Positions 8,618-42,226 of a DNA stretch of 43,012 nucleotides are shown here, in pieces. The notes below the pieces were generated by a model, which made no database searches, was not told where the DNA came from, and saw only the letters and a list, made by a program, of their open reading frames with translations. Source of the DNA: a virus; the IMG/VR virus record IMGVR_UViG_3300006484_000018, positions 1-43,012 of that record; one strand, given 5' to 3'. The translations under genes and the position numbers were made by a program. Positions within the stretch are counted from its first letter, which is position 1; each line of letters starts with the position of its first letter.

Positions 8618-9283
8618 ATGGACGATTTTGGATACGGCGGATATGACATTGTCCCAATGACTGCTATGGGAAAGAAGAATGAAAAATCAACTGTCACTGA
8701 TACTCCGTTTGCGTCGGGCCAGTCATCAGCACCGCCTAAGGCACCTGGTATGGTTATGTATGAAAACGGTATGTACTATATGGCAGACGCCTTTACATAT
8801 GAAAGCACCCGTCCAATTGTAACTTGGATTATTGAGCAAAATCTTTTGCCTGATACACGGCGTCCAAAGGAGTTGACACTGATTATCAATTCGCCTGGAG
8901 GCAGTGTACACGCAGCGTTTGCTTTGATTGACACAATGAAGGGGTCAGCTATTCCTATCAAGACAGTAGGATTGGGTCTTATCGCAAGTGGTGGTGTTCT
9001 CACATTTATGTCGGGCGAACCTGGTCGCCGTGTATTAACTCCAAATACTTCTATTTTGTCTCACCAATATTCTTGGGGGGTAGGTGGCAAGGAACATGAA
9101 TTATTTGCGCGAATGCGTGAGTTTGAATTGAGTTCTGAGCGCATGGTAAAACACTACAAAAAATGTACTGGATTGTCGGAAAAGAAAATTCGCAAATATC
9201 TTCTTCCGGCACACGATGTTTGGTTGAGCGCAGACGAAGCGATTGAATTGAATATCGCTGACGAAATAGTAGAAGTTTATTAA
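8618..9283 (+). CDS. clpP: ClpP-like serine protease, catalytic triad intact
   Basis: The 221-residue protein has the ClpP fold signature: INSPGGSVHAAF (oxyanion region, about 90-101), the nucleophile Ser124 in GLIASGGVLTF, His149 in ILSHQYSWG, and Asp200 in PAHDVWLSADEA. All three catalytic residues are present, so it should be active. An N-terminal extension of about 45 polar residues is not part of a normal mature ClpP and may be a propeptide. ClpP forms tetradecameric chambers fed by ClpX or ClpA. A ClpX with a docking loop is encoded at 40985, so the phage appears to make its own ClpXP. AGAGAGGA precedes the ATG. It lies between primase and helicase, probably in one transcript. Confidence 0.9.
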   Translation: MDDFGYGGYDIVPMTAMGKKNEKSTVTDTPFASGQSSAPPKAPGMVMYENGMYYMADAFTYESTRPIVTWIIEQNLLPDTRRPKELTLIINSPGGSVHAAFALIDTMKGSAIPIKTVGLGLIASGGVLTFMSGEPGRRVLTPNTSILSHQYSWGVGGKEHELFARMREFELSSERMVKHYKKCTGLSEKKIRKYLLPAHDVWLSADEAIELNIADEIVEVY

Positions 9284-9302
9284 TTCTCTCATGTAGTAAG
9301 TA

Positions 9303-9329
9303 AAACATAGGCTGTAATGGCCTATGTTT
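9303..9329 (+). promoter_or_regulatory. Ten-base-pair stem-loop between clpP and helicase genes
   Basis: AAACATAGGC (9303-9312) pairs with GCCTATGTTT (9320-9329) around a seven-base loop. The short run of T after it is interrupted, so it is a weak terminator at best. It may act as an RNA stability element or attenuator before the helicase start at 9349. Confidence 0.5.
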
Positions 9330-9348
9330 AGTAAGTCACGGAGAGAGC

Positions 9349-10758
9349 ATGGCAGACGTAAAAGATTATAACTTAGAAATGCAAAAATTGTTCATTTATT
9401 TTATGATGAACGATCCAGAATTGTATACCAGAGTCAGAAATATCATTGAACCAAGATTTTTTGACAGAGGGCTAAAAGACATTGTAAACACCATCATTGA
9501 GCATAGCGAAGAATACTCGACTTTGCCATCGGCTGAGATAATGAAGGCTTCGCATGGATTTGAGGTAGAAGATTTGGGTGATATTAGCACCCATGCTGAT
9601 TGGTTCTTGGATGAGTTTGAAGAATTCTGCAAACATAAAGCATTAGAGTTAGCAATTATCAATAGCACAGATTTATTACAGGCTGGCAAATATGGCGAAG
9701 TTGAAAAAATGGTTAAAGAGGCAGTCCAGATTGGATTGACTCGTGATTTAGGTATGGATTACTTTGCCAATCCAAGAGAACGCCTTGAATCATTGAAGAA
9801 TAACAACGGTCAAATTTCTACCGGGTGGAAAGACCTTGATCATAAGTTATATGGTGGTATCAACCGTGGGGAAGTAACTATTTTTGCCGGCGGTTCTGGC
9901 GCTGGTAAATCATTGTTCATGCAGAATATGGCATTGAATTGGGCAGAGGCGGGACATAACGTAGTATATTTTACTCTTGAACTTTCTGAGGGATTGTCGG
10001 CTATGCGTATTGATGCGATGTTGACAGACCGAAGCACAAAACAAATCTTCAAAGATTTGGACGAAGTGGAATTAAAAGTTGCTACAGTTGGTAAAAAATC
10101 TGGAATGTTACGGATCAAATATCTACCAAGCGGGGTATCTGTAAATGATTTGCGGTCATATCTAAAGGAATTACAGATACAAACGGGCAAAAAAGTTGAT
10201 TGTGTATGCGTTGATTATCTTGATTTGCTTATGCCAGTAGGTAAGAAAATATCTGCAAGTGATTTGTTTATTAAAGACAAATATGTCACGGAAGAAATTC
10301 GCAACTTTGCAATGGAATGGCAAACAGTCACCGTCACGGCATCCCAGTTGAATCGTTCCGCCGTAGAAGAAGTAGAGTTTGATCATTCGCACATTGCAGG
10401 TGGTATTTCTAAAATTCAAACAGCGGATAATGTTATTGGTATCTTTACATCAAACGCAATGCGAGAACGTGGACAATATCAGTTACAGTTGTTGAAAACA
10501 CGTTCAAGTAGTGGTGTCGGCAGTAAGATTAATCTTGTATTCAACAGAGATAGCTTGCGAATAACGGATGATGATTCTGGAGATGATGATGTCGGAGATG
10601 TAGTAGGTGCATCTTCTGCAGCCAGCATTGTAGATAGTTTGCGTAAAAAGAGTATTACTAGGCCTGATAATAATACTACCACTGAAACATCTGGTGCTGC
10701 GTCAAGTCTACGGGCAATGTTAAGATCAAAAACCCGTGGACCGCTAGATGAAGTATGA
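9349..10758 (+). CDS. 41: Replicative DNA helicase, DnaB/gp41-type
   Basis: The 469-residue protein has an N-terminal helical domain and a RecA-like motor. Walker A is GGSGAGKS (181-188). Walker B is CVCVDYLDLL (about 281-290). The DnaB-family signatures VVYFTLELSEGLSAMR, VTVTASQLNRSA and HIAGGISKIQTADNVI follow, the last including the sensor and arginine-finger region. It unwinds the fork and couples to primase at 7577. The C-terminal 60 residues are acidic and serine-rich, then end in RAMLRSKTRGPLDEV, a possible partner-binding tail. GGAGAG precedes the ATG. The next gene overlaps its stop by 11 bases. Confidence 0.92.
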   Translation: MADVKDYNLEMQKLFIYFMMNDPELYTRVRNIIEPRFFDRGLKDIVNTIIEHSEEYSTLPSAEIMKASHGFEVEDLGDISTHADWFLDEFEEFCKHKALELAIINSTDLLQAGKYGEVEKMVKEAVQIGLTRDLGMDYFANPRERLESLKNNNGQISTGWKDLDHKLYGGINRGEVTIFAGGSGAGKSLFMQNMALNWAEAGHNVVYFTLELSEGLSAMRIDAMLTDRSTKQIFKDLDEVELKVATVGKKSGMLRIKYLPSGVSVNDLRSYLKELQIQTGKKVDCVCVDYLDLLMPVGKKISASDLFIKDKYVTEEIRNFAMEWQTVTVTASQLNRSAVEEVEFDHSHIAGGISKIQTADNVIGIFTSNAMRERGQYQLQLLKTRSSSGVGSKINLVFNRDSLRITDDDSGDDDVGDVVGASSAASIVDSLRKKSITRPDNNTTTETSGAASSLRAMLRSKTRGPLDEV

Positions 10759-11026
10759 AAAATACGCGGCTGACATAATAAGTAATAATTCAAATATGAT
10801 GATACCGTGGTATATCATGGCAGCATATGCGTATTATATTAATGATGATCCGATTATTTCAGATAAAATGTTTGATCAATTGTCAATGGATATTGTGGTG
10901 AACTGGAATTTTATAAGTCATTCACACAAAAAGTTTCTTTCAATTGATATGTTAAAGGCAGGAACTTATTTGGGTGATTATCCATTGATAGTTGAAGGTG
11001 CGATTAACGAACTGCCTTTGTTGTAA
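10748..11026 (+). CDS. Small protein resembling the N-terminal Ia domain of NAD-dependent ligase
   Basis: This 92-residue protein overlaps the helicase end by 11 bases. It contains YAYYINDDPIISDKMFDQLS. The pattern Y-Y-x-x-D-x-P-x-I-S-D-x-x-x-D-x-L matches the NMN-binding Ia segment of bacterial LigA. The rest of LigA (adenylation, OB fold, zinc finger) is absent. It may therefore be a stand-alone Ia-like fold reused for another purpose, or the match may be coincidental. I infer no ligase activity. Confidence 0.5.
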   Translation: MKYEKYAADIISNNSNMMIPWYIMAAYAYYINDDPIISDKMFDQLSMDIVVNWNFISHSHKKFLSIDMLKAGTYLGDYPLIVEGAINELPLL

Positions 11027-11030
11027 TAAA

Positions 11031-11038: not shown

Positions 11039-11062
11039 CAATACGCAACGGAGTTTTTAGCT

Positions 11063-16433: not shown

Positions 16434-16434
16434 A

Positions 16435-25770: not shown

Positions 25771-25906
25771 ACCATACGCACAAAAGATTAAGGAACAGCT
25801 AGAGAACGGCGGAGCGGAGTACGTTCATAGCAAAGGTAAACATATATTCGTCTATCCTCTCAATAAGAAAGAGAGACGGAAGTACAAAATGAAAGCAAAT
25901 ATATAG
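25736..25906 (+). CDS. Small basic ORF at the prkA/methyltransferase junction
   Basis: This 56-residue frame overlaps the prkA remnant by 35 bases and the methyltransferase start by one base. The product is very basic (GERRLKPYAQKIKEQLENGG, then HSKGKHIFVYPLNKKERRKY). It has no clear ribosome site. It could be a real small protein brought in with the methyltransferase, or a leftover of another gene. I do not recognise it. Confidence 0.35.
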   Translation: MRQPQNGERRLKPYAQKIKEQLENGGAEYVHSKGKHIFVYPLNKKERRKYKMKANI

Positions 25907-27144
25907 TGACTGATGTGAAACTTATGCTAGGCAATTGCTTAGACCGACTAAAAGACCTTGATGATAATTCTGTGGATAGTATCGTTACTGACCCACCTTA
26001 TGGAATTGATTTCATGGGTAAGAAATGGGATTACGATGTTCCGTCTACAGAGATTTGGGAACAGGCAATGAGAGTTCTCAAACCAGGTGGTTATCTATTG
26101 GCATTTGCTGGTACACGTACACAACACCGCATGGCGGTTCGCATTGAAGATGCTGGCTTTGAAATTCGTGATATGATTGCTTGGGTATATGGTAGCGGCT
26201 TTCCTAAGTCTCATAATATTGGAAAAAATGTTGATAAACATTTGCGTGGGGTAGGTATAGGAAAATCTGATCCTAAATCACCTTTGCATGGAACTAAAAG
26301 ATTAAAAATTAATGGTGCAAATGCTAAACATGATATGAGTCCTTTATACAAAACACAAACTGTAGAGTATGAATATGAACATGATATTTCGAAACAATGG
26401 AAAGGTTGGGGCACAGCACTCAAACCTGCACTAGAACCTATTACAGTTGCTAGAAAACCATTAGGAGAAAAGACTGTTGCCGCTAATGTCTTGGAGTATG
26501 GTACAGGTGGTATCAATATTGATGAAAGTCGTATTCCCACTAACCCTGATGTTGATGATGCACGACTTGGTGGCAATGGCTCTTGGAAAACTGATAATGC
26601 AGGTTCAAATATAGGAAATGCGCCCTTTAAGGGTGATGATGTTGCTTCATCTGAGCGAGGTCGTTTCCCCGCTAATATTATTCATGATGGTTCTGATGAA
26701 GTGACTGAGTTGTTTCCAAGTGTTAATGGTTCAGCCGCACGTTTCTTCTATGTGCCAAAGACATCTAAGAAAGATCGTAATGATGGACTAGAGAACTTTA
26801 CACCAAAGGCTACAGCGTCTTCTGAGTTCAGACCAAACCATGCAGAGAAAGCAGACAACGGTGAAGATGGCAATCCATATGGACGTTGGACACCTACACA
26901 GAACAACCACCCTACTGTGAAGCCCACAGACCTTATGCGATACCTTGTGACTATGGTAACACCAAAAGGTGGTACAACCCTTGATCCGTTCATGGGTAGT
27001 GGTTCTACAGGACGTGGTGCGAAGCTAGGTGGGTTTAACTTCATTGGTATTGAACTAGACGAAAACTACTTGGAGATTGCCAAGGCTAGAATTGATGCCG
27101 TATCTACTGAGATTACGTTGGAAGAATTTTTTTACTTGACATAA
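25906..27144 (+). CDS. DNA methyltransferase (N4-cytosine or N6-adenine, beta-type order)
   Basis: This 412-residue enzyme starts with GTG at 25906, overlapping the preceding stop by one base. DPPYGIDFMGKKW is near residues 31-43. The AdoMet motif DPFMGSGSTGRGAKL lies near residue 365, preceded by HPTVKPTDLMRYLV. Between them is a 150-residue target-recognition region. It shares the layout of the 292-residue enzyme at 6655 but is longer and diverged, so they probably modify different sites. It lies directly after a truncated prkA start and is closed by a hairpin at 27176, consistent with an acquired cassette. No nuclease gene is beside it, so it may act alone in protection or regulation. Confidence 0.88.
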   Translation: MTDVKLMLGNCLDRLKDLDDNSVDSIVTDPPYGIDFMGKKWDYDVPSTEIWEQAMRVLKPGGYLLAFAGTRTQHRMAVRIEDAGFEIRDMIAWVYGSGFPKSHNIGKNVDKHLRGVGIGKSDPKSPLHGTKRLKINGANAKHDMSPLYKTQTVEYEYEHDISKQWKGWGTALKPALEPITVARKPLGEKTVAANVLEYGTGGINIDESRIPTNPDVDDARLGGNGSWKTDNAGSNIGNAPFKGDDVASSERGRFPANIIHDGSDEVTELFPSVNGSAARFFYVPKTSKKDRNDGLENFTPKATASSEFRPNHAEKADNGEDGNPYGRWTPTQNNHPTVKPTDLMRYLVTMVTPKGGTTLDPFMGSGSTGRGAKLGGFNFIGIELDENYLEIAKARIDAVSTEITLEEFFYLT

Positions 27145-28021: not shown

Positions 28022-29677
28022 ATGCATAAATACGTTGAATATAGGATATTGAAAAATATGAACAAATCAAAACATATACCTCCCGTGGTAGAGGTAGACG
28101 AAACGGCGGATTATGTAAACTGTTTAGATTTACTAGAAGATAATGAAACGTCGCATACGAAAACTTCATTCAGTGTGTTATTTGATGAAGACAATGAAGA
28201 CTCGTGTCTAGAAGTGCCGAAAATATCGGCTGAAAAGCATGTTTGGAAATCTATCAGTATACATTTTCGCAATATTCACGATTTGAATTCATTTGCAGTT
28301 ATGCTGAATCAGACAATTTTTGATAACACGAAATACATTTGGTTTCCTAAGATCGTGACTACATCTTTGTCTGCGTTGTTCGACGATTCCGACGCCATCG
28401 GATACAAGATATCACAAACCACGAAAATTAAAAATGATAAATCAAATAATCAAGAATCATCCAACTTATTTGAAACGGCAGATAACGAGTCAGGCAATGA
28501 TCATTGGACAGATCACTGGAACGATATGCCGTCGTTCATTCAAGAGGAAAATGGCCCTTGGAAAACAATAACTGTAAAACTGGCGACTGAAGAAGATATG
28601 GCGGCGTTTGGTGAAATTATAGACCAAAAACTTACTGCTAAAACAAAAAGCACGTGGCATCCACAACGAATGATCACAAAAAATTCATTGATGCGTTGGT
28701 TTGAAATCAAAAATGGAGAATATGCGTACACCCAGCCGAAATATCCGTTGTATATAATTTCTAAGGGTAGACACGAAACGATGTATACTGCTAGATCATT
28801 ATCTAGGATGCGTATTCATCATCATATTGCTGTTGAGCCACAAGATTGGGAGCTGTATGACGCTGCGCTAGACGAATTCAATATTCGGAATTACGCAACT
28901 TTACTTTTGTTGCCATTCAGCAACCACGGTGATGGACCTGGTAGGGCAAGAAATTGGTGCTGGGATCATAGCATGAAAGTGTATAACGCAAAGCGGCATT
29001 GGGTGTTTGATGATAACATTCAAGATTTTTATCGTTTACATGAGAATCAGCGCATTCGAGTTGAAAGTGGAGTAATGTTCACGATTATGGAAGATTTTTG
29101 TGATAGATACGAAAATATCAAAATCGCTGGACCACAATATCGCTTTTTTTGTGCTGCTGATCAAAAATATCCAGGATATGTAAAGAATACAAGAATATAT
29201 TCCACTCTTCTTATAGAAAATGATTGCAAGCACAGGTGGAGGGGAAGATACAACGAAGATACTGATATTTGCTTGAATGTTCTCAAGGACGAAGATTGCA
29301 CTGTGCAATTCAATATTTTCCTTCAAGGAAAAGCTGCCACTCAAACGGTATCTGGTGGCAACACCCAAGAGTTTTATCATGTAGAAAATGTTGAAGGAGA
29401 GGTTAAGCTTGGAAAATATAACGTTGGTGGCACAGTCAACAAATCTCTATTATTAGAAAAAATGCATCCTGATGTAGCAAAGATGGTATGGAGATATGGT
29501 CGATGGCATCATCATGTTGATTATTCATCATTTAAGGATATCAAGATGCGATATGTTGATGGAGTAGAAGTAGCATCTGGAGAAAATAATTATGGATTAG
29601 AACTTCAGGTATTTAACAACATCGATGAAGTCAACGATGTTACCGGAGTTGAATCGATGAATGGCAGCGACGAATAG
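28022..29677 (+). CDS. TET-associated-type glycosyltransferase with two N-terminal small domains
   Basis: The 551-residue protein has two related N-terminal blocks: WKSISIHFRNIHDLNSFAVM ending TKYIWFP (about 75-109) and WKTITVKLATEEDMAAFGEI ending TKSTWHP (about 180-214). Such blocks are common next to phage DNA-modification enzymes. From residue 240 it matches the TAGT glycosyltransferase pattern: YPLYIISKGRHETMYTARSL, GRARNWCWDHS, HWVFDDNIQDFYRL (the acidic metal motif), and RWRGRYNEDTDICLNVL. TAGT enzymes are predicted to add sugars to hydroxymethylcytosine made by phage TET/JBP oxygenases; no such oxygenase is in this window. Start is uncertain: 28022 or the ATG at 28058, which follows a CATAAATA box. 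Confidence 0.75.
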   Translation: MHKYVEYRILKNMNKSKHIPPVVEVDETADYVNCLDLLEDNETSHTKTSFSVLFDEDNEDSCLEVPKISAEKHVWKSISIHFRNIHDLNSFAVMLNQTIFDNTKYIWFPKIVTTSLSALFDDSDAIGYKISQTTKIKNDKSNNQESSNLFETADNESGNDHWTDHWNDMPSFIQEENGPWKTITVKLATEEDMAAFGEIIDQKLTAKTKSTWHPQRMITKNSLMRWFEIKNGEYAYTQPKYPLYIISKGRHETMYTARSLSRMRIHHHIAVEPQDWELYDAALDEFNIRNYATLLLLPFSNHGDGPGRARNWCWDHSMKVYNAKRHWVFDDNIQDFYRLHENQRIRVESGVMFTIMEDFCDRYENIKIAGPQYRFFCAADQKYPGYVKNTRIYSTLLIENDCKHRWRGRYNEDTDICLNVLKDEDCTVQFNIFLQGKAATQTVSGGNTQEFYHVENVEGEVKLGKYNVGGTVNKSLLLEKMHPDVAKMVWRYGRWHHHVDYSSFKDIKMRYVDGVEVASGENNYGLELQVFNNIDEVNDVTGVESMNGSDE

Positions 29678-29773
29678 CCAAATCGCATCAAGATAGTAGA
29701 GAAAAATGGTTGGGCGAGAAAAACAAAGAAACGTGGCCAGAACGTCCAGGATGTGGCTTCAAAGGAGTATGAT

Positions 29774-30262
29774 ATGGAAGCAAAACTAGTATACGAAGGC
29801 ACAAAATCATTGAATGGACCATCAACCGCATACGAGATCGACGCCGACACCCAAGACCTTGTAAAAGAAATGATAAAGGTGATGGTATTGCACAATGGCA
29901 TTGGTCTTGCTGCTCCACAGATTGGGATCAATAAGCGACTGTTTGTTATTGGCAGCAAAGATACAGATTTCATTGCGTGTATAAATCCAGAATGGGAGCC
30001 CATCGAAGATAGCGACCAAAGATTATTTGATGAAGGATGTTTGAGTTTTCCCGGACTGTTTTTGAAAGTAAAGCGATATAAACGTATCAAAGTATCATAC
30101 ACAACCATGACAGGTGAGCAGAAAACAAGAGAACTTAGCGGAGTTTGGTCCCAAGCATTTCAGCACGAATATGATCATTTGGATGGCATTACGTTTGATA
30201 AAAAAGTGAGCAAGATCAAACTGAATATGGCACAAAAAAAACGTGAGAAGATGTATAAATAA
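29774..30262 (+). CDS. def: Peptide deformylase
   Basis: The 162-residue protein has all three PDF motifs: GIGLAAPQIG (42-51), EGCLSFP (87-93) with metal ligand Cys89, and QHEYDHLDG (130-138) with His131 and His135 as ligands and the catalytic Glu132. It removes the formyl group from nascent N-terminal methionine. Marine phages often carry PDF, thought to keep host or phage proteins processed during infection. The ATG at 29774 has AAAGGAG six bases upstream; a GTG upstream at 29753 is in the same frame but has no ribosome site. It belongs with the translation-related genes in this window. Confidence 0.93.
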   Translation: MEAKLVYEGTKSLNGPSTAYEIDADTQDLVKEMIKVMVLHNGIGLAAPQIGINKRLFVIGSKDTDFIACINPEWEPIEDSDQRLFDEGCLSFPGLFLKVKRYKRIKVSYTTMTGEQKTRELSGVWSQAFQHEYDHLDGITFDKKVSKIKLNMAQKKREKMYK

Positions 30263-30286: not shown

Positions 30287-30469
30287 ATGTTTGATTTTTT
30301 TGCTATATGGGAATGGATAAAAGATAGACTTGCAGAAAGAACAACCTGGGATGGCGGTGTGTTAGTAGCAGCGGGGATTGCGTTTTTGGTACTAGGTCCC
30401 ATCGCTAAGTTGATTGCTTATGGAGCAATCGCATACGGTCTTTGGACTATTTGGCAAGAACAAAAATAA
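30287..30469 (+). CDS. Small membrane protein
   Basis: The 60-residue protein starts after TAGGAGAG. Residues about 22-52 are strongly hydrophobic (GGVLVAAGIAFLVLGPIAKL, then AYGAIAYGLW), enough for one long or two short membrane helices, with amphipathic ends. It ends IWQEQK. Many phages have a similar short protein. The function is unknown. Confidence 0.65.
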   Translation: MFDFFAIWEWIKDRLAERTTWDGGVLVAAGIAFLVLGPIAKLIAYGAIAYGLWTIWQEQK

Positions 30470-30472
30470 CAC

Positions 30473-30501
30473 TTGACGAATCACTTGAGATAGTGTATAA
30501 A
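30473..30501 (+). promoter_or_regulatory. Promoter for the tmRNA gene
   Basis: TTGACG (30473-30478), 17 bases, then TATAAA (30496-30501). The -35 is followed by AATCA, giving the TTGACGAATCA form seen at several sites in this region. TATAAATA at 30496-30503 also matches the T4 late box, so early and late use are both possible. Confidence 0.65.
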
Positions 30502-30528
30502 TAATACTGTAGTTGATGATACAACTTG

Positions 30529-30823
30529 AAAGATGGACAGGACTGGAGTTCGAGCCTCCACAGGTCCACCACGAACACACAGGAAGATGTGGCCACATAA
30601 TTAAAGGTAAAGTAACCTTGCTACTGTGTGTTTTTGATGGGCCTGAGCATTTGGGATCGACTGACGTTGGACGATGAGAGTAGACTACCGGGATGTAAGC
30701 GCCGTTACCGCGAACAAACTTTATAATTGCAAATAACAATTATGCGCCAGAAATGGCAAAACTAGCAGCCTAAGGGTATGTGGGGGTTTTGTAACTTGAG
30801 CCTAGCAACAGAATCAAGTTACA
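30529..30823 (+). ncRNA. ssrA: Circularly permuted (two-piece) tmRNA
   Basis: The tRNA-like 3' half comes first. T-stem TGGAG/CTCCA (30544-30548, 30556-30560) closes loop TTCGAGC, followed by acceptor strand CAGGTCC (30561-30567), A73 and encoded CCA (30569-30571). The 5' half begins at 30639 with GGGCCTG, which pairs with that strand over seven pairs, including the G3-U70 wobble that alanyl-tRNA synthetase needs. The segment between, 30572-30638, has outer stem AACACACAG/CTGTGTGTT and would be removed. GGATCGAC matches the conserved tmRNA D-loop region. The resume codon is GCA at 30729, and the tag reads ANNNYAPEMAKLAA, with TAA at 30771-30773. Stem GTAACTTGA/TCAAGTTAC closes the 3' side. 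Permuted tmRNAs are known in alphaproteobacteria, some betaproteobacteria and cyanobacteria. Exact piece ends are inferred. Confidence 0.93.
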
Positions 30824-30852
30824 CAAAAAACGAAACGTAGCATAAATAATAC

Positions 30853-30881
30853 TTGACGAATCAACGCCAATTTGATAATAT
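30853..30881 (+). promoter_or_regulatory. Promoter upstream of the beta-barrel-like gene
   Basis: TTGACG (30853-30858), 17 bases, TAATAT (30876-30881). It has the same TTGACGAATCA -35 form as the tmRNA promoter. Transcription would start near 30888, just before the hairpin at 30891. Confidence 0.6.
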
Positions 30882-30890
30882 AAGCGACAT

Positions 30891-30920
30891 AACTGATAAT
30901 AACTTTTATCAGTTTTTTTT
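30891..30920 (+). terminator. Hairpin with T run directly after a promoter
   Basis: AACTGATAA (30891-30899) pairs with TTATCAGTT (30906-30914), and T continues to 30920. It looks like an intrinsic terminator and may end the tmRNA transcript, or it may be an attenuator or protective 5' stem for the transcript that starts near 30888. Confidence 0.7.
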
Positions 30921-30958
30921 CTATTACTATCATGAATAAATCACAAGGAACTAACAAT

Positions 30959-31516
30959 ATGAAAACAACCCTCGCCGCCGCAGCAATTGTCGCACTTTCT
31001 TCAGGTTCAGCATTTGCTCTGGATTTCAATACGCCAGGACTAACGTTCGATAGTGAAATTAACCTAGAATACAATGTAACTACCGAAGATTTTGGTTCCA
31101 TTTATGTAGGCAATGTAAACTATCAGGCGTTTGATCAACTTCGTCTGTATACTGGAATAGAAGTAGACCTAGAAGATCCAAATGCTACCGGAGTGCATGT
31201 TGGTGCTGAACTTGAATTCGATTATATGGTTACTGATCGGATTTCGTTGATTCATACTGGCACGCTAGAGTATAACTTGCGCACTGAAGAATCAATAGTT
31301 GAATACACAGGTCGTGTAAACTATGGCATCAATGAAAGTTTTGTTGCGTATGTCGGAACTACAGTCAATCTGGACAATCCTACTTGGGATGGAGCAGATT
31401 TTGGTATTCAATACACCGTTGATCGATCCTACGTGATGGATCAAACTGTAAGTCTATACGGCGAATACAACACTGATAGTGAACAAGTCGTAGTAGGCGC
31501 TCGTTTGAATTTCTAA
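30959..31516 (+). CDS. Secreted beta-barrel or porin-like outer membrane protein
   Basis: The 185-residue protein starts at the ATG at 30959 with AAGGA nine bases upstream; an ATG at 30932 would extend it by nine polar residues. Residues 1-20 are a classic signal peptide (MKTTLAAAAIVALSSGSAFA), with cleavage after AFA. The mature part alternates polar and hydrophobic residues in beta-strand fashion (LTFDSEINLEYNVTTEDFGS, VAYVGTTVNLDNPTW) and ends VVVGARLNF, the terminal phenylalanine used by the Bam complex. It resembles small porin-like proteins of alphaproteobacteria. In a lytic phage it might alter the cell surface, for example to exclude other phages; this is inference. Confidence 0.75.
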   Translation: MKTTLAAAAIVALSSGSAFALDFNTPGLTFDSEINLEYNVTTEDFGSIYVGNVNYQAFDQLRLYTGIEVDLEDPNATGVHVGAELEFDYMVTDRISLIHTGTLEYNLRTEESIVEYTGRVNYGINESFVAYVGTTVNLDNPTWDGADFGIQYTVDRSYVMDQTVSLYGEYNTDSEQVVVGARLNF

Positions 31517-31657
31517 TATTTCAGCACTATTATAAAACGATAAAATGATTATGTAAGGCTCTCCGCAATCGCGTGATCTGAAAGTAAAATGTAAAAAATG
31601 TAAAAAAGTAAGTATAGTATGAATGGCGCTCAATACGATCTATTTTTACTATAAAAA

Positions 31658-31665
31658 GATAAATA
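31658..31665 (+). promoter_or_regulatory. Candidate late promoter box GATAAATA
   Basis: The box lies just upstream of the TTGACG promoter at 31682, so the short transcript that follows may be made both early and late. Confidence 0.4.
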
Positions 31666-31681
31666 AAGTGTAAGAAAATAC

Positions 31682-31710
31682 TTGACGAATCAATATAGAT
31701 ACTATATATT
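31682..31710 (+). promoter_or_regulatory. Promoter for a short transcript
   Basis: TTGACG (31682-31687), 17 bases, TATATT (31705-31710). The -35 has the AATCA extension. Transcription from about 31717 would run to the terminator at 31875. Confidence 0.65.
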
Positions 31711-31737
31711 ATAAACAAGTTATTATAGATAAAAGGA

Positions 31738-31848
31738 AATGGAACTTTCGATGACCCGTTCAACTCAACATAAACAGATTATTAAGAGCATCTTTGGATG
31801 CCGCCAGTTTATGCGCGGTTGTTCAATTGGGGGTTTCGGTAATGGATA
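31738..31848 (+). CDS. Small ORF within a short terminated transcript
   Basis: A 36-codon frame starts at an ATG near 31738, with a second in-frame ATG at about 31750 that is better placed (12 bases) from AGGA. The product is short and basic with cysteines (TRSTQHKQIIKSIFGCRQFM, then RGCSIGGFGNG). It lies between a strong promoter and a strong terminator. The RNA itself could be the product, so coding is uncertain. The flanking 31517-31681 and 31849-31874 hold no gene that I can see. Confidence 0.35.
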
Positions 31849-31874
31849 GATAACATATCCAAATAACGATCACA

Positions 31875-31908
31875 AAAACCCTCGCAGAGAAATCTCCGAG
31901 GGTTTTTT
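31875..31908 (+). terminator. Strong intrinsic terminator before the tRNA cluster
   Basis: AAAACCCTCG (31875-31884) pairs with CGAGGGTTTT (31897-31906), and the T run extends to 31908. The first tRNA begins at 31911. Confidence 0.9.
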
Positions 31909-31910
31909 AT

Positions 31911-31986
31911 TGGGCTATGGTGTAATTGGTAACACACCTGATTTTGGTTCAGAAGAGTCTAGGTTCGAGTCCTAGTAGCCCAACCA
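31911..31986 (+). tRNA. tRNA-Gln (TTG)
   Basis: The 76-base cloverleaf has acceptor TGGGCTA/TAGCCCA, D-stem GTGT/ACAC, anticodon loop TTTTGGT with anticodon TTG, T-arm CTAGG-TTCGAGT-CCTAG and encoded CCA. One mismatch occurs at the top of the anticodon stem. Confidence 0.9.
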
Positions 31987-32081
31987 GCCAACACAATATC
32001 TGACAGGAAACTGTCTCCGCTTTTTGAAAATTTAATGATGTATGTTTGAGATAGAAGAAATTCGATGATCCCAAGAAATAT

Positions 32082-32157
32082 AGTGTATAGGCGAAATGGT
32101 TCACGCAATTCTCTCATAAGGAATAATTACATGGTTCGATTCCATGATACACTACCA
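32082..32157 (+). tRNA. tRNA with CAT anticodon (Met or Ile-CAT)
   Basis: The cloverleaf has acceptor AGTGTAT/ATACACT, anticodon loop CTCATAA, T-arm CATGG-TTCGATT-CCATG and encoded CCA. A1-T72 pairing argues against an initiator tRNA. Elongator Met or lysidine-modified Ile cannot be separated by eye. The 95 bases before it (31987-32081) show no gene. Confidence 0.88.
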
Positions 32158-32163
32158 AACAAT

Positions 32164-32244
32164 GCCCACGTATCCCCCTCCGCTACGAACGGAGAGTAAG
32201 GTAACTGGATGTAGATGTAGGTTCGACTCCTACCGTGGGCGCCA
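32164..32244 (+). tRNA. Atypical tRNA-Arg-like (ACG) lacking a normal D-arm
   Basis: Acceptor GCCCACG/CGTGGGC, T-arm GTAGG-TTCGACT-CCTAC and encoded GCCA are good. Anticodon arm CTCCG-CTACGAA-CGGAG with ACG is perfect but begins only seven bases (TATCCCC) after the acceptor stem, leaving no room for a D-arm. A 22-base stretch lies between anticodon arm and T-arm (32195-32216) and contains AACTGGATGTAG, like a D-loop. It may be a rearranged or inactive tRNA, or a new fold. Confidence 0.65.
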
Positions 32245-32254
32245 AACATATTTT

Positions 32255-32330
32255 GCCAGTTAAGTGTTTATGGATACACGCGAGGTTGTGGACCTTGAAT
32301 AGATAGGATCGTTGCCTACAACTGGTACCA
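32255..32330 (+). tRNA. tRNA-His (GTG)
   Basis: Acceptor GCCAGTT/AACTGGT, A73 and CCA; D-arm GTGT/ACAC; anticodon arm CGAGG-TTGTGGA-CCTTG with GTG. The T-loop ATCGTTG departs from the usual TTCGANN, and its stem has one mismatch. A73 without an extra G matches the histidine tRNAs of some alphaproteobacteria. Confidence 0.8.
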
Positions 32331-32338
32331 AAATAAAT

Positions 32339-32414
32339 GAAAGGTTAGCTGATGTGGTCATAGCGTCGGTTTGAAGCACCGAAGAACTGAGTTCGATCCT
32401 CAGGCCTTTCACCA
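32339..32414 (+). tRNA. tRNA-Phe (GAA)
   Basis: A regular cloverleaf: acceptor GAAAGGT/GCCTTTC, anticodon arm TCGGT-TTGAAGC-ACCGA with GAA, T-arm CTGAG-TTCGATC-CTCAG, and encoded ACCA. Confidence 0.92.
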
Positions 32415-32422
32415 AATAAAAT

Positions 32423-32450
32423 TTGACGTTGGACGAATCAACGTTATAGT
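32423..32450 (+). promoter_or_regulatory. Promoter within the tRNA cluster
   Basis: TTGACG (32423-32428), 16 bases, TATAGT (32445-32450). It lies just before the tRNA-Cys gene at 32466; the spacer contains GAATCA. Confidence 0.5.
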
Positions 32451-32465
32451 GAATACGAAATCGAA

Positions 32466-32547
32466 GGTCGGTGGCCCGGACGGTAAGGGGCGGGTTTGCA
32501 AATCCCAGGCACGAAAGTAATCAGTTCGACTCTGATACCGACTTCCA
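32466..32547 (+). tRNA. tRNA-Cys-like (GCA), enlarged variable region
   Basis: Acceptor GGTCGGT/ACCGACT, T73 and CCA fit tRNA-Cys (U73 is its identity base). The anticodon loop TTGCAAA gives GCA, but the stem (CGGGT/TCCCA) has mismatches at both ends. T-arm ATCAG-TTCGACT-CTGAT is regular. The variable region is about 12 bases instead of 4-5. Confidence 0.75.
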
Positions 32548-32557
32548 ACAATAAAAC

Positions 32558-32586
32558 TTGACGAATCGAAACAATGCTGTTATAGT
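32558..32586 (+). promoter_or_regulatory. Promoter-like element overlapping tRNA-Thr
   Basis: TTGACG (32558-32563), 17 bases, TATAGT (32581-32586), but the -10 box is inside the tRNA-Thr gene. It could transcribe the downstream genes only, not this tRNA, or be a decayed duplicate. Confidence 0.35.
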
Positions 32587-32650
32587 TCAGGGGTAGAACG
32601 CTTTCTTGGTAAGGAAGAGATCACAAGTTCAAATCTTGCTAACAGCACCA
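32576..32650 (+). tRNA. tRNA-Thr (GGT)
   Basis: Acceptor GCTGTTA/TAACAGC with encoded ACCA; anticodon arm CTTTC-TTGGTAA-GGAAG with GGT; T-loop TTCAAAT, with one mismatch in the T-stem. Confidence 0.9.
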
Positions 32651-32663
32651 AAAGGAGAAGCAG

Positions 32664-32867
32664 ATGCATACTGAAAACAACTATGAGTTCGCAACGGAAG
32701 AAGATGCGCAAGAATTTGTAAGTAATCATAAAGCAGGAAACAACCCTAGTGCTGACGTATATGTGAGTGGACCGTTTTTAATAGATGAATCGAAAATCTT
32801 TGAGAATATGAGTTGGGTTATTCCACGCAAGCCTTTTTGGATGGTCACGATAGAAATTTACAAGTAA
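32664..32867 (+). CDS. Small uncharacterised protein in the tRNA cluster
   Basis: This 67-residue protein starts after AAAAGGAG. It has NYEFATEEDAQEFVSNHKAG, similar in style to the E/D-x-D-A-x-x-F modules at 1334 and 3716, then ADVYVSGPFL and a hydrophobic end with PRKPFWMVTIEIY. It is translated between tRNA genes, which is common in phage tRNA clusters. No function can be assigned. Confidence 0.6.
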   Translation: MHTENNYEFATEEDAQEFVSNHKAGNNPSADVYVSGPFLIDESKIFENMSWVIPRKPFWMVTIEIYK

Positions 32868-32881
32868 AAAGGAGAAAGAAA

Positions 32882-33031
32882 ATGAAACGAAAGATGAAGG
32901 TGCCCAAAGAACGTAATCCAATCGTTATGTGTTTAATGACGACACGTTCTGGTGCGCACGGTAAAACGAAAAAAGCAGAACGCAAGGCTGCTAAACAAAA
33001 TTTGCGCAAAGAAATATATATGGACCAGTGA
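32882..33031 (+). CDS. Small basic conserved-type phage protein
   Basis: This 49-residue protein starts at the ATG at 32882 after AAGGAG. PKERNPIVMCLMTTRSGAHG, then KTKKAERKAAKQNLRKE, matches a short family very common in phages (R-N-P-x-V, R-x-G-A-H, many lysines). The family role is unknown; small size and charge suggest RNA or protein binding. Its last ten bases overlap the tRNA at 33022. Confidence 0.65.
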   Translation: MKRKMKVPKERNPIVMCLMTTRSGAHGKTKKAERKAAKQNLRKEIYMDQ

Positions 33032-33109
33032 CCCGAGAGGCCGAAGGGACCGGACTTTTAATCCGGAGTAGCAATACCGTCATGAGTTCGAATCTCATCT
33101 GGTCCACCA
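33022..33109 (+). tRNA. tRNA with TTT (Lys) anticodon on a class II body
   Basis: 88 bases: acceptor GGACCAG/CTGGTCC, A73, encoded CCA; D-region ACCCGAGAGGCCGAAGGG typical of class II tRNAs; anticodon arm CCGGA-CTTTTAA-TCCGG, anticodon TTT; variable arm with stem GTA-GCAA-TAC; T-arm ATGAG-TTCGAAT-CTCAT. The long variable arm belongs to Leu, Ser or Tyr tRNAs, and the D-region resembles Tyr, yet the anticodon reads lysine codons. Confidence 0.8.
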
Positions 33110-33119
33110 TTACTTTGAT

Positions 33120-33184
33120 GATACACTGACTTAATAGACCGGTACCGTTTGTGGAAAGTAATAAAACGGTTGGTGTATCTTCCA
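33120..33184 (+). other. tRNA-like paired structure without cloverleaf
   Basis: GATACAC (33120-33126) pairs with GTGTATC (33173-33179), followed by TTCCA. Inside, ACCGTTT (33144-33150) pairs with AAACGGT (33164-33170). No anticodon arm or T-loop is recognised. It may be a decayed tRNA gene or another structured RNA in the cluster. Confidence 0.4.
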
Positions 33185-33206
33185 AGTAATGACTAAATAT
33201 AGTTGA

Positions 33207-33280
33207 TGCGATGTAGTGTAAAGTAACACGACAGACTCATATTCTGTAACTGTAGGTATCGAGTCCTACCGACGCAACCA
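33207..33280 (+). tRNA. tRNA with CAT anticodon (second; Met or Ile-CAT)
   Basis: Acceptor TGCGATG/CGACGCA with one mismatch, encoded ACCA; D-stem GTGT/ACAC; anticodon arm ACAGA-CTCATAT-TCTGT; T-stem GTAGG/CCTAC with an eight-base loop. One of the two CAT tRNAs in this cluster may be the lysidine type that reads AUA. Confidence 0.8.
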
Positions 33281-33286
33281 AATAAT

Positions 33287-33361
33287 GCCTGTGGGTCCGG
33301 AAAGCGAGGGCCTCGCCTGATAAGCGAGTGATAGAAGGGGCAGTACCTTCCGCAGGCACCA
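33287..33361 (+). tRNA. tRNA-Ile (GAT)
   Basis: Acceptor GCCTGTG/CGCAGGC, encoded ACCA; anticodon arm CTCGC-CTGATAA-GCGAG with GAT. The T-arm is GAAGG/CCTTC, but the loop GGCAGTA lacks the usual TTCGA, so the molecule is atypical. Confidence 0.8.
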
Positions 33362-33369
33362 AAAATAAT

Positions 33370-33440
33370 GCGGGTATGGTGAAAAGGTATCATATGAGAT
33401 TTCCAATCTTCGGTTGTCGGTTCGATTCCGTCTACCCGCT
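33370..33440 (+). tRNA. tRNA-Gly (TCC), CCA not encoded
   Basis: Acceptor GCGGGTA/TACCCGC with T73, as expected for glycine; anticodon loop TTTCCAA gives TCC; T-loop TTCGATT. Stems of the anticodon and T-arms each have a mismatch. The gene ends TCAAAA, so CCA must be added by the host enzyme, unlike the other tRNAs in the cluster. Confidence 0.8.
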
Positions 33441-33458
33441 CAAAATAAGGAATGATAA

Positions 33459-37873: not shown

Positions 37874-38321
37874 AATTCAACGAGCCAGGTTTCGCAAGCA
37901 GCATAATATGCCATCTTGGAAAGTCATGGGCAGAGTATCCGAAAAAACGGGACAGGCGTTAAAAAATCTCGTATTGGGTAACGATACCAGCAATATGTCT
38001 TTTATTGTTAACTCTATAACCAATTTACTTTCTGTTCCGATTTACGATATATCAGCAGATTCTTACAGTGGTGAGATTCAAACTGCTTGGAAAAGGTCAA
38101 AGAACTATACTACTGCTGAAGGTATATTTTTTCTTTCAGCCGATGGCGAGGCAACTATAGATTTTATCAGCGATGAAAGTGTTGTGATACGTCCACACCA
38201 AGTTGTTTTCGTTGATGATAGACAGCAGTATAGATTGACATCAAATACTAAAACCCGGCTTATTTTGTTATCTGGTAAATTTTTATGGGATAGCACAACT
38301 CACGCAAATGGGAACCAATGA
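37866..38321 (+). CDS. Cupin-like protein
   Basis: This 151-residue protein starts at the ATG at 37866, overlapping the kinase stop by eight bases. The N-terminus is basic (SKIQRARFRKQHNM). The C-terminal half, EGIFFLSADGEATIDFISDE, then VVIRPHQVVFVDDRQQYRLT, alternates like a cupin barrel, with only one of the usual metal histidines visible. A small-molecule or sugar-binding role is possible. The enzyme class is unknown. Confidence 0.5.
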   Translation: MSKIQRARFRKQHNMPSWKVMGRVSEKTGQALKNLVLGNDTSNMSFIVNSITNLLSVPIYDISADSYSGEIQTAWKRSKNYTTAEGIFFLSADGEATIDFISDESVVIRPHQVVFVDDRQQYRLTSNTKTRLILLSGKFLWDSTTHANGNQ

Positions 38322-38650
38322 TGAAAATTGACCTGCACGGATTGACAGTTCATGGTGGCTGGAAATTATATTGTAAGATGACGCAACTTTGTTATAATGG
38401 TGGCAAGAAAACGCTTACTGTTATTACTGGTCAAGGACAAATGAATACTGAGATTATGGGTTGGGTATCAGCCGACCAGTATGCCAAAAGCGCAAAAAAG
38501 TTGAACGAAGGTGCTTGGCAAATAGAGATTGTGAGCAAGAAAAAAGAAGACAAGAAGCGGAGTGTTACTGATCCAGGATACAAATGTTCGGATGATGTAA
38601 CTCCACTCCAACTTGAAAAGTTACACCGAAAATTCAATGGAGGCAAATAA
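38318..38650 (+). CDS. Smr-domain protein
   Basis: The 110-residue protein is a single Smr domain: IDLHGLTVHGG (4-14) with the D-L-H-G motif and LTVITGQGQM (33-42) with the T-G-x-G motif. A positively charged C-terminus follows. Smr domains of MutS2 and related proteins cut branched DNA, or act on mRNA of stalled ribosomes. The second role would fit the tmRNA and ClpXP genes of this phage, but that link is only an inference. It starts in an overlap with the previous stop. Confidence 0.8.
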   Translation: MMKIDLHGLTVHGGWKLYCKMTQLCYNGGKKTLTVITGQGQMNTEIMGWVSADQYAKSAKKLNEGAWQIEIVSKKKEDKKRSVTDPGYKCSDDVTPLQLEKLHRKFNGGK

Positions 38651-39429: not shown

Positions 39430-39433
39430 TTAT

Positions 39434-40969
39434 ATGAGATTTGCGTTATTGACATTTATCGTTGCCATTGTAATTGCTATGGTAGCGGGTTGGTTTTCAA
39501 TCGTCGGTCTTATGGCGATTTTTGCCGCATCTGCCATTCCAGTGGCAATCATGGCTGGATCATTGGAAGTTGGAAAACTTGTTGCCGCATCTTGGGTATA
39601 TCGGAACTGGAAACGAGCGCCATTCTTATTAAAAACGTATCTTGTGATGGCAACCATCGTATTGATGTTTATTACATCCATGGGAATTTTTGGGTTCCTT
39701 TCAAAGGCGCATCTTGAGCAATCGGCACAGGCAGAACAAGTTGCTGCCCAAGTTATTCGTATAGAAAGAAATATTGAACGTCTTGAGATAGATGCCAACA
39801 GGTTACTTGGTGATATCGCTGATTTGGAATCTGAAACAAGTACGGATGTCGGTAACATACAAGCACAAATAGACGCAGAACAAACACGTATGGATAACGC
39901 ATATTTGCGTATTCAGCCTGCGATTGACGAACAGAATGCAATAATTTCACAAGAGGAATCTTCGGTTGAACGTGAAATCAACATATACTTAACACAGGTC
40001 GAAGAAATTAATACATCATTATCTCTTATCCAAGAGTATATTTCGGCAGGAAATATCGAATCATTACAAGCACTAGTAGGAACAAGGGTAGATGGAAATT
40101 ATGGCAGTGATACTGCTGAGAGAGTTGAAACGTACAGAGAAGAATTAATTTTGCGCAGAGAGGTCGCATCGGCTGAAATATCACAACTGCGAACTACAAT
40201 AGATACTGCTACGATTACGGATGCTCGGTCAGAAATACAAAGATTGCGTGAAATAGCAGAGGGTGAAGTTGCGAGTTCACAAGCCACCATACTTCGCCTC
40301 AGACAAGAATTAGATGAAAGCGCAGAAATTGATAACACAGATGAAGTTATAGGATTACGCACTGTTTATAATTCGGCAATTGAAGAAATAGATGCCTCAT
40401 TAGATGAACAGTTTGCTCTAGAAACAGAAGTAAGACTTTTGGAAGCAGAGATTGGACCAATTAAATATATTGCCGAGTTGGTATATGGCAATGATGATAG
40501 AGACACTATAGATGAAGCGGTTAGATGGTTAATCATTATATTCATTTTCGTGTTTGATCCTCTTGCAGTGTTATTGTTAATCGCTGCCAATTATAGTTTT
40601 TTCCACAGAAATGATCATTCAGACAAGCAAGAAGAAATATTTGACACTATTTTTAAAAAACGCGATACAAATAATTCTGTAGTTTCACCACAATCTGCGG
40701 TAGAAACAGAAGAACAAATATATACTGAAACAGAAAAATCACTTGACAAAAACACCGAAATAGACGATAATAGTATTAATGTATCTGATGAACTACCCGC
40801 GCCAAATATATCAGAAAACATAGATGATTTAGATATGGAAACAATACAAAGAATGATTGACGAAGATGATCCAAATCTAGTTGGACTTGAACGCGAGTTG
40901 GAACGTAGAATAAATACTAATAGAATTTTGATCAACGGTGGTTGGTTAGATGATATTTCAAAAAAATGA
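39434..40969 (+). CDS. Membrane-anchored long coiled-coil protein
   Basis: The 511-residue protein has hydrophobic segments at about 1-20, 22-42 and 69-92, a long coiled coil (about 95-345, for example AQVIRIERNIERLEIDANRL) and another hydrophobic segment near 365-390 (LIIIFIFVFDPLAVLLLIAA). The C-terminus is acidic. The N-terminal block SIVGLMAIFAASAIPVAIMA and LEVGKLVAASWVYRNWKRAP is a pattern conserved in T4-like phages; the role is unknown to me. Membrane topology suggests a large inner-membrane protein with a coiled-coil domain. Translation is probably controlled by a hairpin over the ribosome site. Confidence 0.72.
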   Translation: MRFALLTFIVAIVIAMVAGWFSIVGLMAIFAASAIPVAIMAGSLEVGKLVAASWVYRNWKRAPFLLKTYLVMATIVLMFITSMGIFGFLSKAHLEQSAQAEQVAAQVIRIERNIERLEIDANRLLGDIADLESETSTDVGNIQAQIDAEQTRMDNAYLRIQPAIDEQNAIISQEESSVEREINIYLTQVEEINTSLSLIQEYISAGNIESLQALVGTRVDGNYGSDTAERVETYREELILRREVASAEISQLRTTIDTATITDARSEIQRLREIAEGEVASSQATILRLRQELDESAEIDNTDEVIGLRTVYNSAIEEIDASLDEQFALETEVRLLEAEIGPIKYIAELVYGNDDRDTIDEAVRWLIIIFIFVFDPLAVLLLIAANYSFFHRNDHSDKQEEIFDTIFKKRDTNNSVVSPQSAVETEEQIYTETEKSLDKNTEIDDNSINVSDELPAPNISENIDDLDMETIQRMIDEDDPNLVGLERELERRINTNRILINGGWLDDISKK

Positions 40970-40984
40970 GTTTGAATACTAAAT

Positions 40985-42226
40985 ATGACAAGTAATGATA
41001 TCCATATGTGTTCTTTTTGCGAAAAACACAAAAATCAAGTTGAAACACTGATAGCAGGTAGCGAATGTTATGTATGCAATGAATGTGTTGATTTATGTTA
41101 TAAAATTATACACGATAATTATATAGGATCAGAGATTGATATTTCTGGAACGCCAACGCCGAGTGAAATAAAGGAGGTATTGGACGAATCAGTTATCGGT
41201 CAAGATTTTGCTAAAGAAGTACTTAGTGTTGCTGTATACAATCATTACAAGAGGCTTGCATCAAACGATAATAGTATTAGGATAGACAAGTCAAATATTA
41301 TGATGCTTGGTCCAAGTGGAACAGGAAAAACATTGATAGCAAAGACGATTTCAGAGTTTTTACATGTGCCATTCGCGCAAGTAGATTCCACGTCTCTGAC
41401 TGAATCTGGATATGTCGGAGACGATGTTGAAAACATAATTCAGCGACTACTTGTTGCTGCGGATTTTGATGTTAGCATGACAGAACGTGGAATTATTTTC
41501 ATAGATGAGGTTGATAAAAAAACTAAGAAGGGTGAAAATATTTCAATCACAAAAGATGTTAGTGGCGAGGGCGTTCAGCAAGCGTTGTTAAAGATTGTTG
41601 AAGGAACGGTAGTTCGTGTTCCTCCAGAAGGTGGGCGCAAGCATCCTGGCAAAGAAATGATAGAAGTAGACACACGTAATATATTGTTTATATGCGCAGG
41701 AGCATTCATTGGGCTGGATGATATTGTCCGTAAGCGTATGTATAGTAAAGCCGGAGTTGGATTTGGATCACAGATTGGCGTTAATGAAAAAGTCATAGAC
41801 ATGGAGAAAGATGTGAGATCGGATGATATTATTCAATATGGTATAATTCCAGAGTTGATGGGCCGATTTCCTGTAACAGTTGGATTAAAGGCATTAAACA
41901 AAGATGATTTGATGCGAATACTTATTGAACCAAAACATAACATTATATCACAGTTTAAACATTTGTTCAGCATAGATGGAATTGAACTAATATTTGATGA
42001 TAGCGCGATTGAAGAAATAGCGAATGTCGCTATAAAGTCTAAGACCGGTGCAAGAGAGTTACGTTCTATAGTAGAACGAGCATTACACAGTTTACAATTT
42101 AATTTGCCAACACTGGCAGCAGAAGGAGTTAAAAAAATTATTATCAATGACAATTATATAACAACTGGCGAAAATCCGATACTCATACACGAAAAAGACG
42201 AACCTGTGAGTGTCAACAATGACTAA
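40985..42226 (+). CDS. clpX: ClpX unfoldase
   Basis: The 413-residue protein has all ClpX landmarks: zinc domain Cys9, Cys12, Cys31, Cys34; Walker A GPSGTGKT (109-116); pore loop GYVG (142-145); Walker B IIFIDEVD (170-177); RKH loop (218-220); docking loop VGFG (258-261), where E. coli has IGFG; and GAR sensor 2 (355-357). It should unfold substrates and pass them to ClpP, which this phage also encodes (8618). ClpX recognises C-terminal LAA of ssrA tags, and this phage's own tag ends LAA. It starts 15 bases after the preceding gene and overlaps infC by eight bases. Confidence 0.95.
   Translation: MTSNDIHMCSFCEKHKNQVETLIAGSECYVCNECVDLCYKIIHDNYIGSEIDISGTPTPSEIKEVLDESVIGQDFAKEVLSVAVYNHYKRLASNDNSIRIDKSNIMMLGPSGTGKTLIAKTISEFLHVPFAQVDSTSLTESGYVGDDVENIIQRLLVAADFDVSMTERGIIFIDEVDKKTKKGENISITKDVSGEGVQQALLKIVEGTVVRVPPEGGRKHPGKEMIEVDTRNILFICAGAFIGLDDIVRKRMYSKAGVGFGSQIGVNEKVIDMEKDVRSDDIIQYGIIPELMGRFPVTVGLKALNKDDLMRILIEPKHNIISQFKHLFSIDGIELIFDDSAIEEIANVAIKSKTGARELRSIVERALHSLQFNLPTLAAEGVKKIIINDNYITTGENPILIHEKDEPVSVNND

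Follow-up and report, generated by a model that had tools for sequence, protein, structure and literature searches.

The IMG/VR virus record IMGVR_UViG_3300006484_000018, a linear record of 43,012 bases with a GC content of 38% that is referred to here in its full length as the window, encodes a permuted, two-piece tmRNA, the unfoldase ClpX and a ClpP-like serine peptidase (Table 1). The sequence comes from a large tailed phage that carries a translation-support kit of nine tRNAs, peptide deformylase, initiation factor IF-3, ribosomal protein bS21, the permuted tmRNA and ClpX; clamp loader and thymidine kinase genes are also present. The record is probably a fragment of a larger genome, and absences inside it therefore carry little weight. 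An original prediction, made from the letters of the sequence, had placed the three genes in the window and read them as a complete set for trans-translation and degradation. The genes are real and lie where they had been placed, as matches to PF00574, TIGR00382 and RF04321 confirm, and all three identifications are far beyond chance.

Table 1. Features of the window discussed in the text
Feature	Position	Strand	Basis and remarks
Permuted (two-piece) tmRNA gene	30477..30864	+	ARAGORN limits (tmRNA*)
3′ acceptor strand CAGGUCC, then ACCA	30561..30571	+	5′ of its partner strand (permutation)
5′ acceptor strand GGGCCUG	30639..30645	+	7/7 pairs with the 3′ strand, including G3-U70
Tag reading frame ANNNYAPEMAKLAA*	30729..30773	+	ARAGORN; ends LAA
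Putative sigma-70-like promoter TTGACG-17-TATAAA	30473..30501	+	Pattern match
Repeat D1 with TTGACGAATC, copy 1	30461..30483	+	Other copies at 30841-30863, 31670-31692, 32546-32568
ClpX unfoldase, 413 aa	40985..42226	+	zf-C4_ClpX 3.6e-13, AAA_2 4.5e-30, ClpB_D2-small 3.5e-08
ClpP-like serine peptidase, 221 aa, phage type-A clade	8618..9283	+	PF00574 1.4e-29; between primase and DnaB
p511, membrane/coiled-coil-like protein, 511 aa	39434..40969	+	5′ neighbour of ClpX in many viral loci
Small SMR-domain protein P0004, 110 aa, DLHG...TGQG	38318..38650	+	PF01713 1.4e-4, 22.4 bits (cut-off 25.7)
DNA primase, ClpP neighbour	7568..8605	+	phrog_47 5.2e-38
DnaB-like helicase, ClpP neighbour	9349..10758	+	phrog_19 3.5e-75, PF03796 5.2e-20
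Peptide deformylase	29753..30262	+	NF001159 136.6 bits (cut-off 125); phrog_2890 4.2e-41
Nine tRNA genes	31911..33441	+	tRNA/tmRNA scan; 7/9 also by Rfam
Translation initiation factor IF-3	42210..42734	+	PF05198 5.7e-23, PF00707 1.8e-19
Ribosomal protein bS21	42727..42972	+	PF01165 9.5e-13; TIGR00030 47.7 bits (cut-off 28.95)

Permuted tmRNA, ClpX and a divergent ClpP-like peptidase

The tmRNA gene scores 84.2 bits with the Rfam model RF04321 (gathering threshold 47; match at 30509-30773) and 57.1 bits with the alphaproteobacterial tmRNA model RF01849 (threshold 50), and its folding beats that of shuffled sequences with a z-score of -3.03. Together with the ARAGORN call, these matches uphold the predicted tmRNA with a tag ending in LAA, for which the permutation had been overlooked: the 3′ acceptor piece lies ahead of both the 5′ piece and the tag frame. 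The encoded CCA end is present, as is G3-U70, the alanine identity pair. The pattern AN[DN]NYAPEMA was matched in 106 viral stretches and two genome stretches, one of which is probably viral, since its contig is as long as a viral contig, while the other lies in a Neomarinimicrobiota metagenome-assembled genome. Among the tag-pattern loci (n=108), ARAGORN called a tmRNA in 77; ANDNYAPEMALAA was the commonest tag (44), and the window tag was found once. PEMA does not occur in any of 43 alphaproteobacterial tags, which were obtained from 28 of 30 loci and 15 of 20 regions.

The 3′ end of the putative tmRNA promoter is 8 bases upstream of where the Rfam match begins. The strict sigma-70-like pattern is found four times in the window (0.84 expected), and the exact TTGACGAATC core also four times (0.12 expected), always inside 2.1 kb around the tmRNA and tRNAs. 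It is the strict pattern and the repeated core that make the case for a promoter, because a looser generic scan of the window gave no enrichment (13 matches, compared with 12.2 in shuffled sequences). The D1 repeats as such resemble promoters and are restricted to the surroundings of the tmRNA and tRNA genes (30461-32568). As a candidate T4-like late promoter, TATAAATA was rejected, with five occurrences on the plus strand and one on the minus strand where we estimate about seven at this base composition. The Rfam scan of the window gave no riboswitch family at or above cut-off.

ClpX exceeds both equivalog cut-offs (TIGR00382, 511.8 vs 370.75 bits; NF003745, 535.6 vs 359) and can be aligned over its full length with solved ClpX structures (best chain 435 bits). 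The zinc domain, pore and ClpP docking loop that had been claimed for it were all recovered, as cysteines C9, C12, C31 and C34, the motif GYVG (142-145) and the tripeptide VGF (258-260), of which G and F are invariant in an 11-row alignment. The Walker and RKH elements are kept as well. Judged by its sequence, the protein is a true ClpX. In a tree of 48 ClpX rows, a single branch with support 92/73 splits 21 viral from 27 bacterial rows, and the nearest relative of the window protein is that of record G069, at 58% identity. Since 26 of the 27 bacterial rows are alphaproteobacterial and many of the viral branches are long, the tree argues against recent uptake from the sampled bacteria only. 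Three type-B phage ClpX proteins are partly without the RKH loop that the window ClpX keeps. At two loci (L321 and L322, in records G066 and G072) ClpX stands beside a canonical ClpP, with NKPQAN replacing the RKH loop and GYAG in the pore; a tmRNA is present there nonetheless.

In the window ClpX is preceded by p511 and followed by IF-3 and bS21. The p511 protein has hydrophobic N-terminal stretches and a weak Tetraspanin match under cut-off, and a PHROG search with it gave no match. It lies 5′ of ClpX in the window and in 7 of the 12 ClpX loci of one set, the other five being one locus cut at a contig edge and four contigs of 71,398 bases. The same position is taken in all of G037, G066, G067, G069, G070, G072 and G090, and at loci L407, L420 and L430. 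IF-3 follows ClpX in the window, where it is the direct neighbour, in G037, G066, G067, G069 and G072, in the 71-kb contigs, at L407, L420 and L430, and in Sinorhizobium phage Phosso and Agrobacterium phage Atu_ph07. Partial p511 matches are also found in phages, Pelagibacter phage Mosig for one, with no clpX among the annotated neighbours there.

The Ser-His-Asp triad of the ClpP-like peptidase is intact, as had been predicted: S124, H149 and D200 do not vary among 29 aligned rows made up of the window protein and phage relatives, nor among 10 rows with canonical ClpP included. An AlphaFold2 model superimposes on Escherichia coli ClpP (7mk5_W) with Z 26.0 and a root-mean-square deviation of 1.6 over 174 aligned residues at 26% identity. 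This second model, with a mean pLDDT of 81.5, was built after adding seven more distant rows, five of them canonical-type viral ClpP, which may bias it toward the canonical fold; a first model, built on 26 close relatives, was of poor quality, with a mean pLDDT of 55.2, and was set aside. A BFVD fold search with the model returned mostly viral ClpP-like entries and did not separate the rival explanations considered below.

In other respects the peptidase departs from canonical ClpP. The axial segment LVPMVVEQ...RGERxYDIYSRLL, present in the full-length bacterial and type-B ClpP rows read, is absent from the window protein and from all 28 full-length type-A open reading frames read, one of which is a 100% copy of the window protein. 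With the clpP equivalog model TIGR00493 the window protein reaches 67.9 bits, where the cut-off is 308.6. The 13 type-A rows, including the window, group together with support 100/100 and are set apart by long branches from the bacterial ClpP and that of type-B phages, in a tree whose bootstrap had not settled. Of the supposed complete set, the part that stands is that a tmRNA and a genuine ClpX are encoded together; on the three counts just given, the ClpP part does not. In the explanation favoured below, the window ClpP represents a distinct, phage-specific branch of the ClpP fold, and its pairing with ClpX is uncertain. Its location suggests early or replication-time expression. The primase-ClpP-DnaB order recurs in one group of relatives, and in another group ClpP lies several kilobases ahead of primase.

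Distribution among related records and known phages

The tmRNA, ClpX and ClpP genes occur together in six IMG/VR records, namely the window (G000), G037, G066, G067, G069 and G072, and in the cultured jumbo phage Phosso. In G066, G067 and G072 the gene order is ClpP-p511-ClpX-IF3, and the ClpP, which is canonical, lies at a distance of 3-5 kb. Of 53 related records, 14 have a permuted tmRNA at or above the family cut-off, two of these matches (G022 and G023) being marginal at 47.8 vs 47 bits and having implausible tags; the gene is also present in 12 of 19 further records that were picked partly for holding the tag or being known phages. The tag at the two marginal loci (L107 and L108) reads GTPTLVLIG, and these tmRNA genes are possibly decayed or misread. 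ClpX was counted in 12 of the 53 records, not 13, as what matches in G021 (E 4.5e-5) is no more than a short stretch of AAA. In G043, G070 and G090, tmRNA and ClpX are present without ClpP, and G004 (131 kb) has only a type-A ClpP of the three genes. The genes assort independently among these relatives, with the reservation that the virus records compared may be fragments.

SmpB (PF01668) was found neither in the window nor in any of the 22 records searched, which include the window and two complete jumbo phage genomes; controls for this search were positive in 10 of 14 genomes. The earlier remark that SmpB is not seen in the window and may be supplied by the host agrees with the wider sample. 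By the same count, and since records of at least 130 kb carry one or two of the three genes without the others, calling the set complete was too strong.

Jumbo phage papers already describe such pieces, and similar sets are found in a few other giant phages. The closest counterpart is Phosso (PV764938, 469 kb, complete), which like the window has a permuted tmRNA (113.3 bits), ClpX beside IF-3, a type-A ClpP (57% identical) with IF-1 near, a peptide deformylase, and a gene annotated as Smr/MutS family 8.8 kb from clpX. Unlike the window, Phosso has a second ClpP match of canonical type, its tmRNA was not called by ARAGORN itself, and its clpX stretch gave no p511 match at 1e-5. Atu_ph07 (490 kb, complete) shares the order ClpX then IF-3 and has an SMR relative 7.8 kb from clpX, and seven Clp-family proteins have been described for it (PMC6102473). 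It differs from the window in that its ClpP match is of canonical type at 28% identity and in that a tmRNA was not found, with no RF04321 match and a best RF00023 score of 16.6 bits, under the cut-off. The Sinorhizobium jumbo phage AP-J-162 has a tmRNA, clpX beside IF-3 and six Clp open reading frames (PMC11242549); the accessible text of that paper does not link tmRNA and Clp, and the term trans-translation does not occur in it. When open-licence papers were searched for one that joins a phage tmRNA with ClpX and ClpP, it was the only relevant phage paper to come up.

Bacillus phage G also encodes ClpP, ClpX and a tmRNA, but its tmRNA fits the standard model (RF00023, 67.6 bits), its ClpP has the canonical start, and the ClpP-like gp257 adjoins the ClpX-like gp258. 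The marine Methylophilales phage Melnitz has a two-piece permuted tmRNA, for which tagging and amino-acid recycling have been proposed, and tmRNA was reported in 402 of 18,146 phage genomes (PMC9004378). In contrast to the window, the Melnitz tmRNA is under a glutamine riboswitch, and the accessible text has no occurrence of clpP. The huge phages of Al-Shayeb et al. carry IF1/IF3, S21, peptide deformylase, tmRNA and SmpB (PMC7162821), whereas Clp, part of the window set, has no occurrence in the accessible main text.

Proposed ribosome rescue with host factors and competing explanations

Gene content, gene order, intact motifs and conservation are observed; from them we infer a route in which phage and host components cooperate, and we place its probability a little above one half. 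Host RNA polymerase would transcribe the tmRNA from its own sigma-70-like promoter, and host enzymes would cut the RNA into two pieces. With host SmpB, the tmRNA would then free stalled ribosomes during infection and add the LAA-ending tag. The tag would be recognised by ClpX of either phage or host, and a ClpP, perhaps that of the host, would serve in the degradation of the tagged products.

Several observations weigh against this explanation. In the window tag, LAA is preceded by Lys, which is the case for only one of the 77 tmRNAs called at the tag-pattern loci. The window ClpP reads IVPM at residues 11-14, a faint likeness to the canonical start LVPMVVEQ, the remainder of which is absent. 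G069 (155 kb) and G047 (71 kb) have a type-A ClpP with ClpX and no canonical ClpP, a content that would fit a type-A ClpXP. G021 (306 kb) combines a type-A ClpP and a tmRNA without ClpX, G046 (130 kb) has ClpX without tmRNA or ClpP, and G089 (150 kb) has a tmRNA alone. Furthermore, some huge phages carry SmpB (PMC7162821), and the window genome is incomplete.

The most serious competitor, which we consider quite possible while giving it clearly less than an even chance, treats the three genes as independent accessories. ClpX would serve replication or remodel specific host or phage proteins, the tmRNA would only free ribosomes, and ClpP would have another role near replication. The independent assortment of the genes is in keeping with this, as is the position of ClpP between primase and DnaB or several kilobases before primase, and roles of this kind, with ClpX near topoisomerase genes, have been proposed for Atu_ph07 (PMC6102473) and AP-J-162 (PMC11242549). 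Less easily accommodated are the conserved cassette that joins ClpX to translation genes, IF-3 and often bS21, and the spacing between ClpP and tmRNA. Ten records, of which two are near-identical, keep this spacing at 15-27 kb (14.8-27.1 kb; G000, G003, G007, G016, G018, G021, G028, G035, G037 and G042; G022 and G023 omitted).

The original prediction went further and let the phage ClpX and the window ClpP form a ClpXP that would destroy whatever the phage tmRNA has tagged and thereby supply the phage with amino acids. We regard this as unlikely, at roughly one chance in four. All three genes have intact motifs and co-occur in six IMG/VR records and Phosso, G069 and G047 hold ClpX with a type-A ClpP only, and the modelled window ClpP has the ClpP fold. 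Set against these points are the lacking axial segment and the score under the clpP equivalog cut-off, and the type-A ClpP of G021 and G004 occurs without ClpX. The ClpP and ClpX genes are also 32 kb apart in the window, whereas canonical phage ClpP adjoins or nears ClpX in phage G and in G066, G067 and G072.

It is very improbable that the window ClpP is a head maturation protease of ClpP type, a candidate that we rejected even though its best PHROG match is the head maturation protease family phrog_94 (1e-28). The model for ClpP-related head proteases, NF045542, gives 59.3 bits for a cut-off of 120, and the gene sits between primase and DnaB. A T4-type prohead protease (PF03420, found in 4 of 24 records) is encoded separately and far from the type-A ClpP in G021 and Phosso, which makes a head protease role of ClpP unlikely. 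That a metagenomic contig such as this one is a chimeric assembly or bacterial contamination can be practically dismissed, given that contigs G001 and G003 have an identical ClpP together with primase and DnaB genes (G003 also an identically scoring tmRNA), that the phage ClpX is separate from 26 alphaproteobacterial rows and one further bacterial row, and that phage genes are found throughout the surroundings.

A small SMR-domain protein and possible collision-triggered rescue

Upstream of the p511-ClpX-IF3-bS21 cassette, 2.3 kb ahead of ClpX, lies a gene for a small SMR-domain protein that has both the DxH (DLH) and the GxG (GQG) motif, with Thr at the His position of HGxG. The window protein itself scores under the Pfam cut-off of 25.7 bits, and two relatives are above it, at 26.7 and 29.6 bits. 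SmrB cuts mRNA at collided ribosomes, which the tmRNA pathway then rescues; DxH and GxG are its key motifs, and an N-terminal extension, or hook, recruits it to the ribosome (PMC10897456). There is no room for such a hook in the window protein, where the domain begins at residue 4 of 110.

A search of viral sequences with the window SMR protein alone gave no relatives, and a single SMR relative as query returned four copies of itself and no annotated phage. A profile from a three-row alignment matched 47 viral loci. DxH was present in 25 of 25 and GxG in 23 of 25 of the loci read, counts that are partly circular as the loci were partly selected by those motifs. With two SMR queries against 50,697 records, Atu_ph07 and Phosso were the only annotated phages matched, and weakly (Phosso and Atu_ph07 at E 6e-3 and 2e-3, with 5e-3 from the other query); no PHROG family was found except for a weak match of one row. 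At the mutually similar loci L407, L420 and L430, SMR lies 3.9-4.8 kb upstream of ClpX, p511 separates the two and IF-3 follows ClpX, and in G007 and G021 it is found together with a tmRNA and a type-A ClpP. Two results argue against a fixed SMR-tmRNA-ClpX unit: there is no tmRNA in about 20 kb around the SMR-ClpX genes of L407, L420 and L430, and a strict motif scan gave no SMR near ClpX in the examined stretches of G037 and G069.

From these sequence features, a collision nuclease is a possible function of the window SMR protein, and SMR domains can act otherwise. A phage-owned route of cutting, rescue and unfolding is likewise possible. In its full form, a collision-triggered rescue owned by the phage, we consider it improbable, with odds somewhat worse than one in five. 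The SMR protein would cleave mRNA where ribosomes collide, the permuted tmRNA would act with host SmpB to rescue ribosomes on the cut message and tag the product, the phage ClpX would unfold that product, and IF-3 and bS21 would direct the freed ribosomes to phage mRNA. As parts of the same proposal, ClpX may be anchored by the membrane protein p511, and the ClpP branch confined to phages may form a proteolytic chamber that can do without the usual axial gate. If this were true, it would silence host mRNA and recycle it as well.

Lytic phages cut and outcompete host mRNA, which makes stalled ribosomes costly for them. If a phage brings a tmRNA, ClpX, IF-3 and bS21 of its own, and perhaps a collision nuclease too, this would mean that viruses take over the quality control of translation besides translation itself. 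The idea can be tested because Phosso, which is in culture and infects a soil symbiont, has the same genes. The phage-only ClpP branch would be a natural variant of a well-studied protease without the segment that is usual at the axial pore, and the type-A ClpP and the SMR link are the parts most worth following.

Apart from these systems, the window encodes a TET-associated glycosyltransferase (PF20691, 2.6e-39) and two DNA methyltransferases (28022-29677, 6655-7533 and 25906-27144, respectively), which suggests that the phage DNA is modified.

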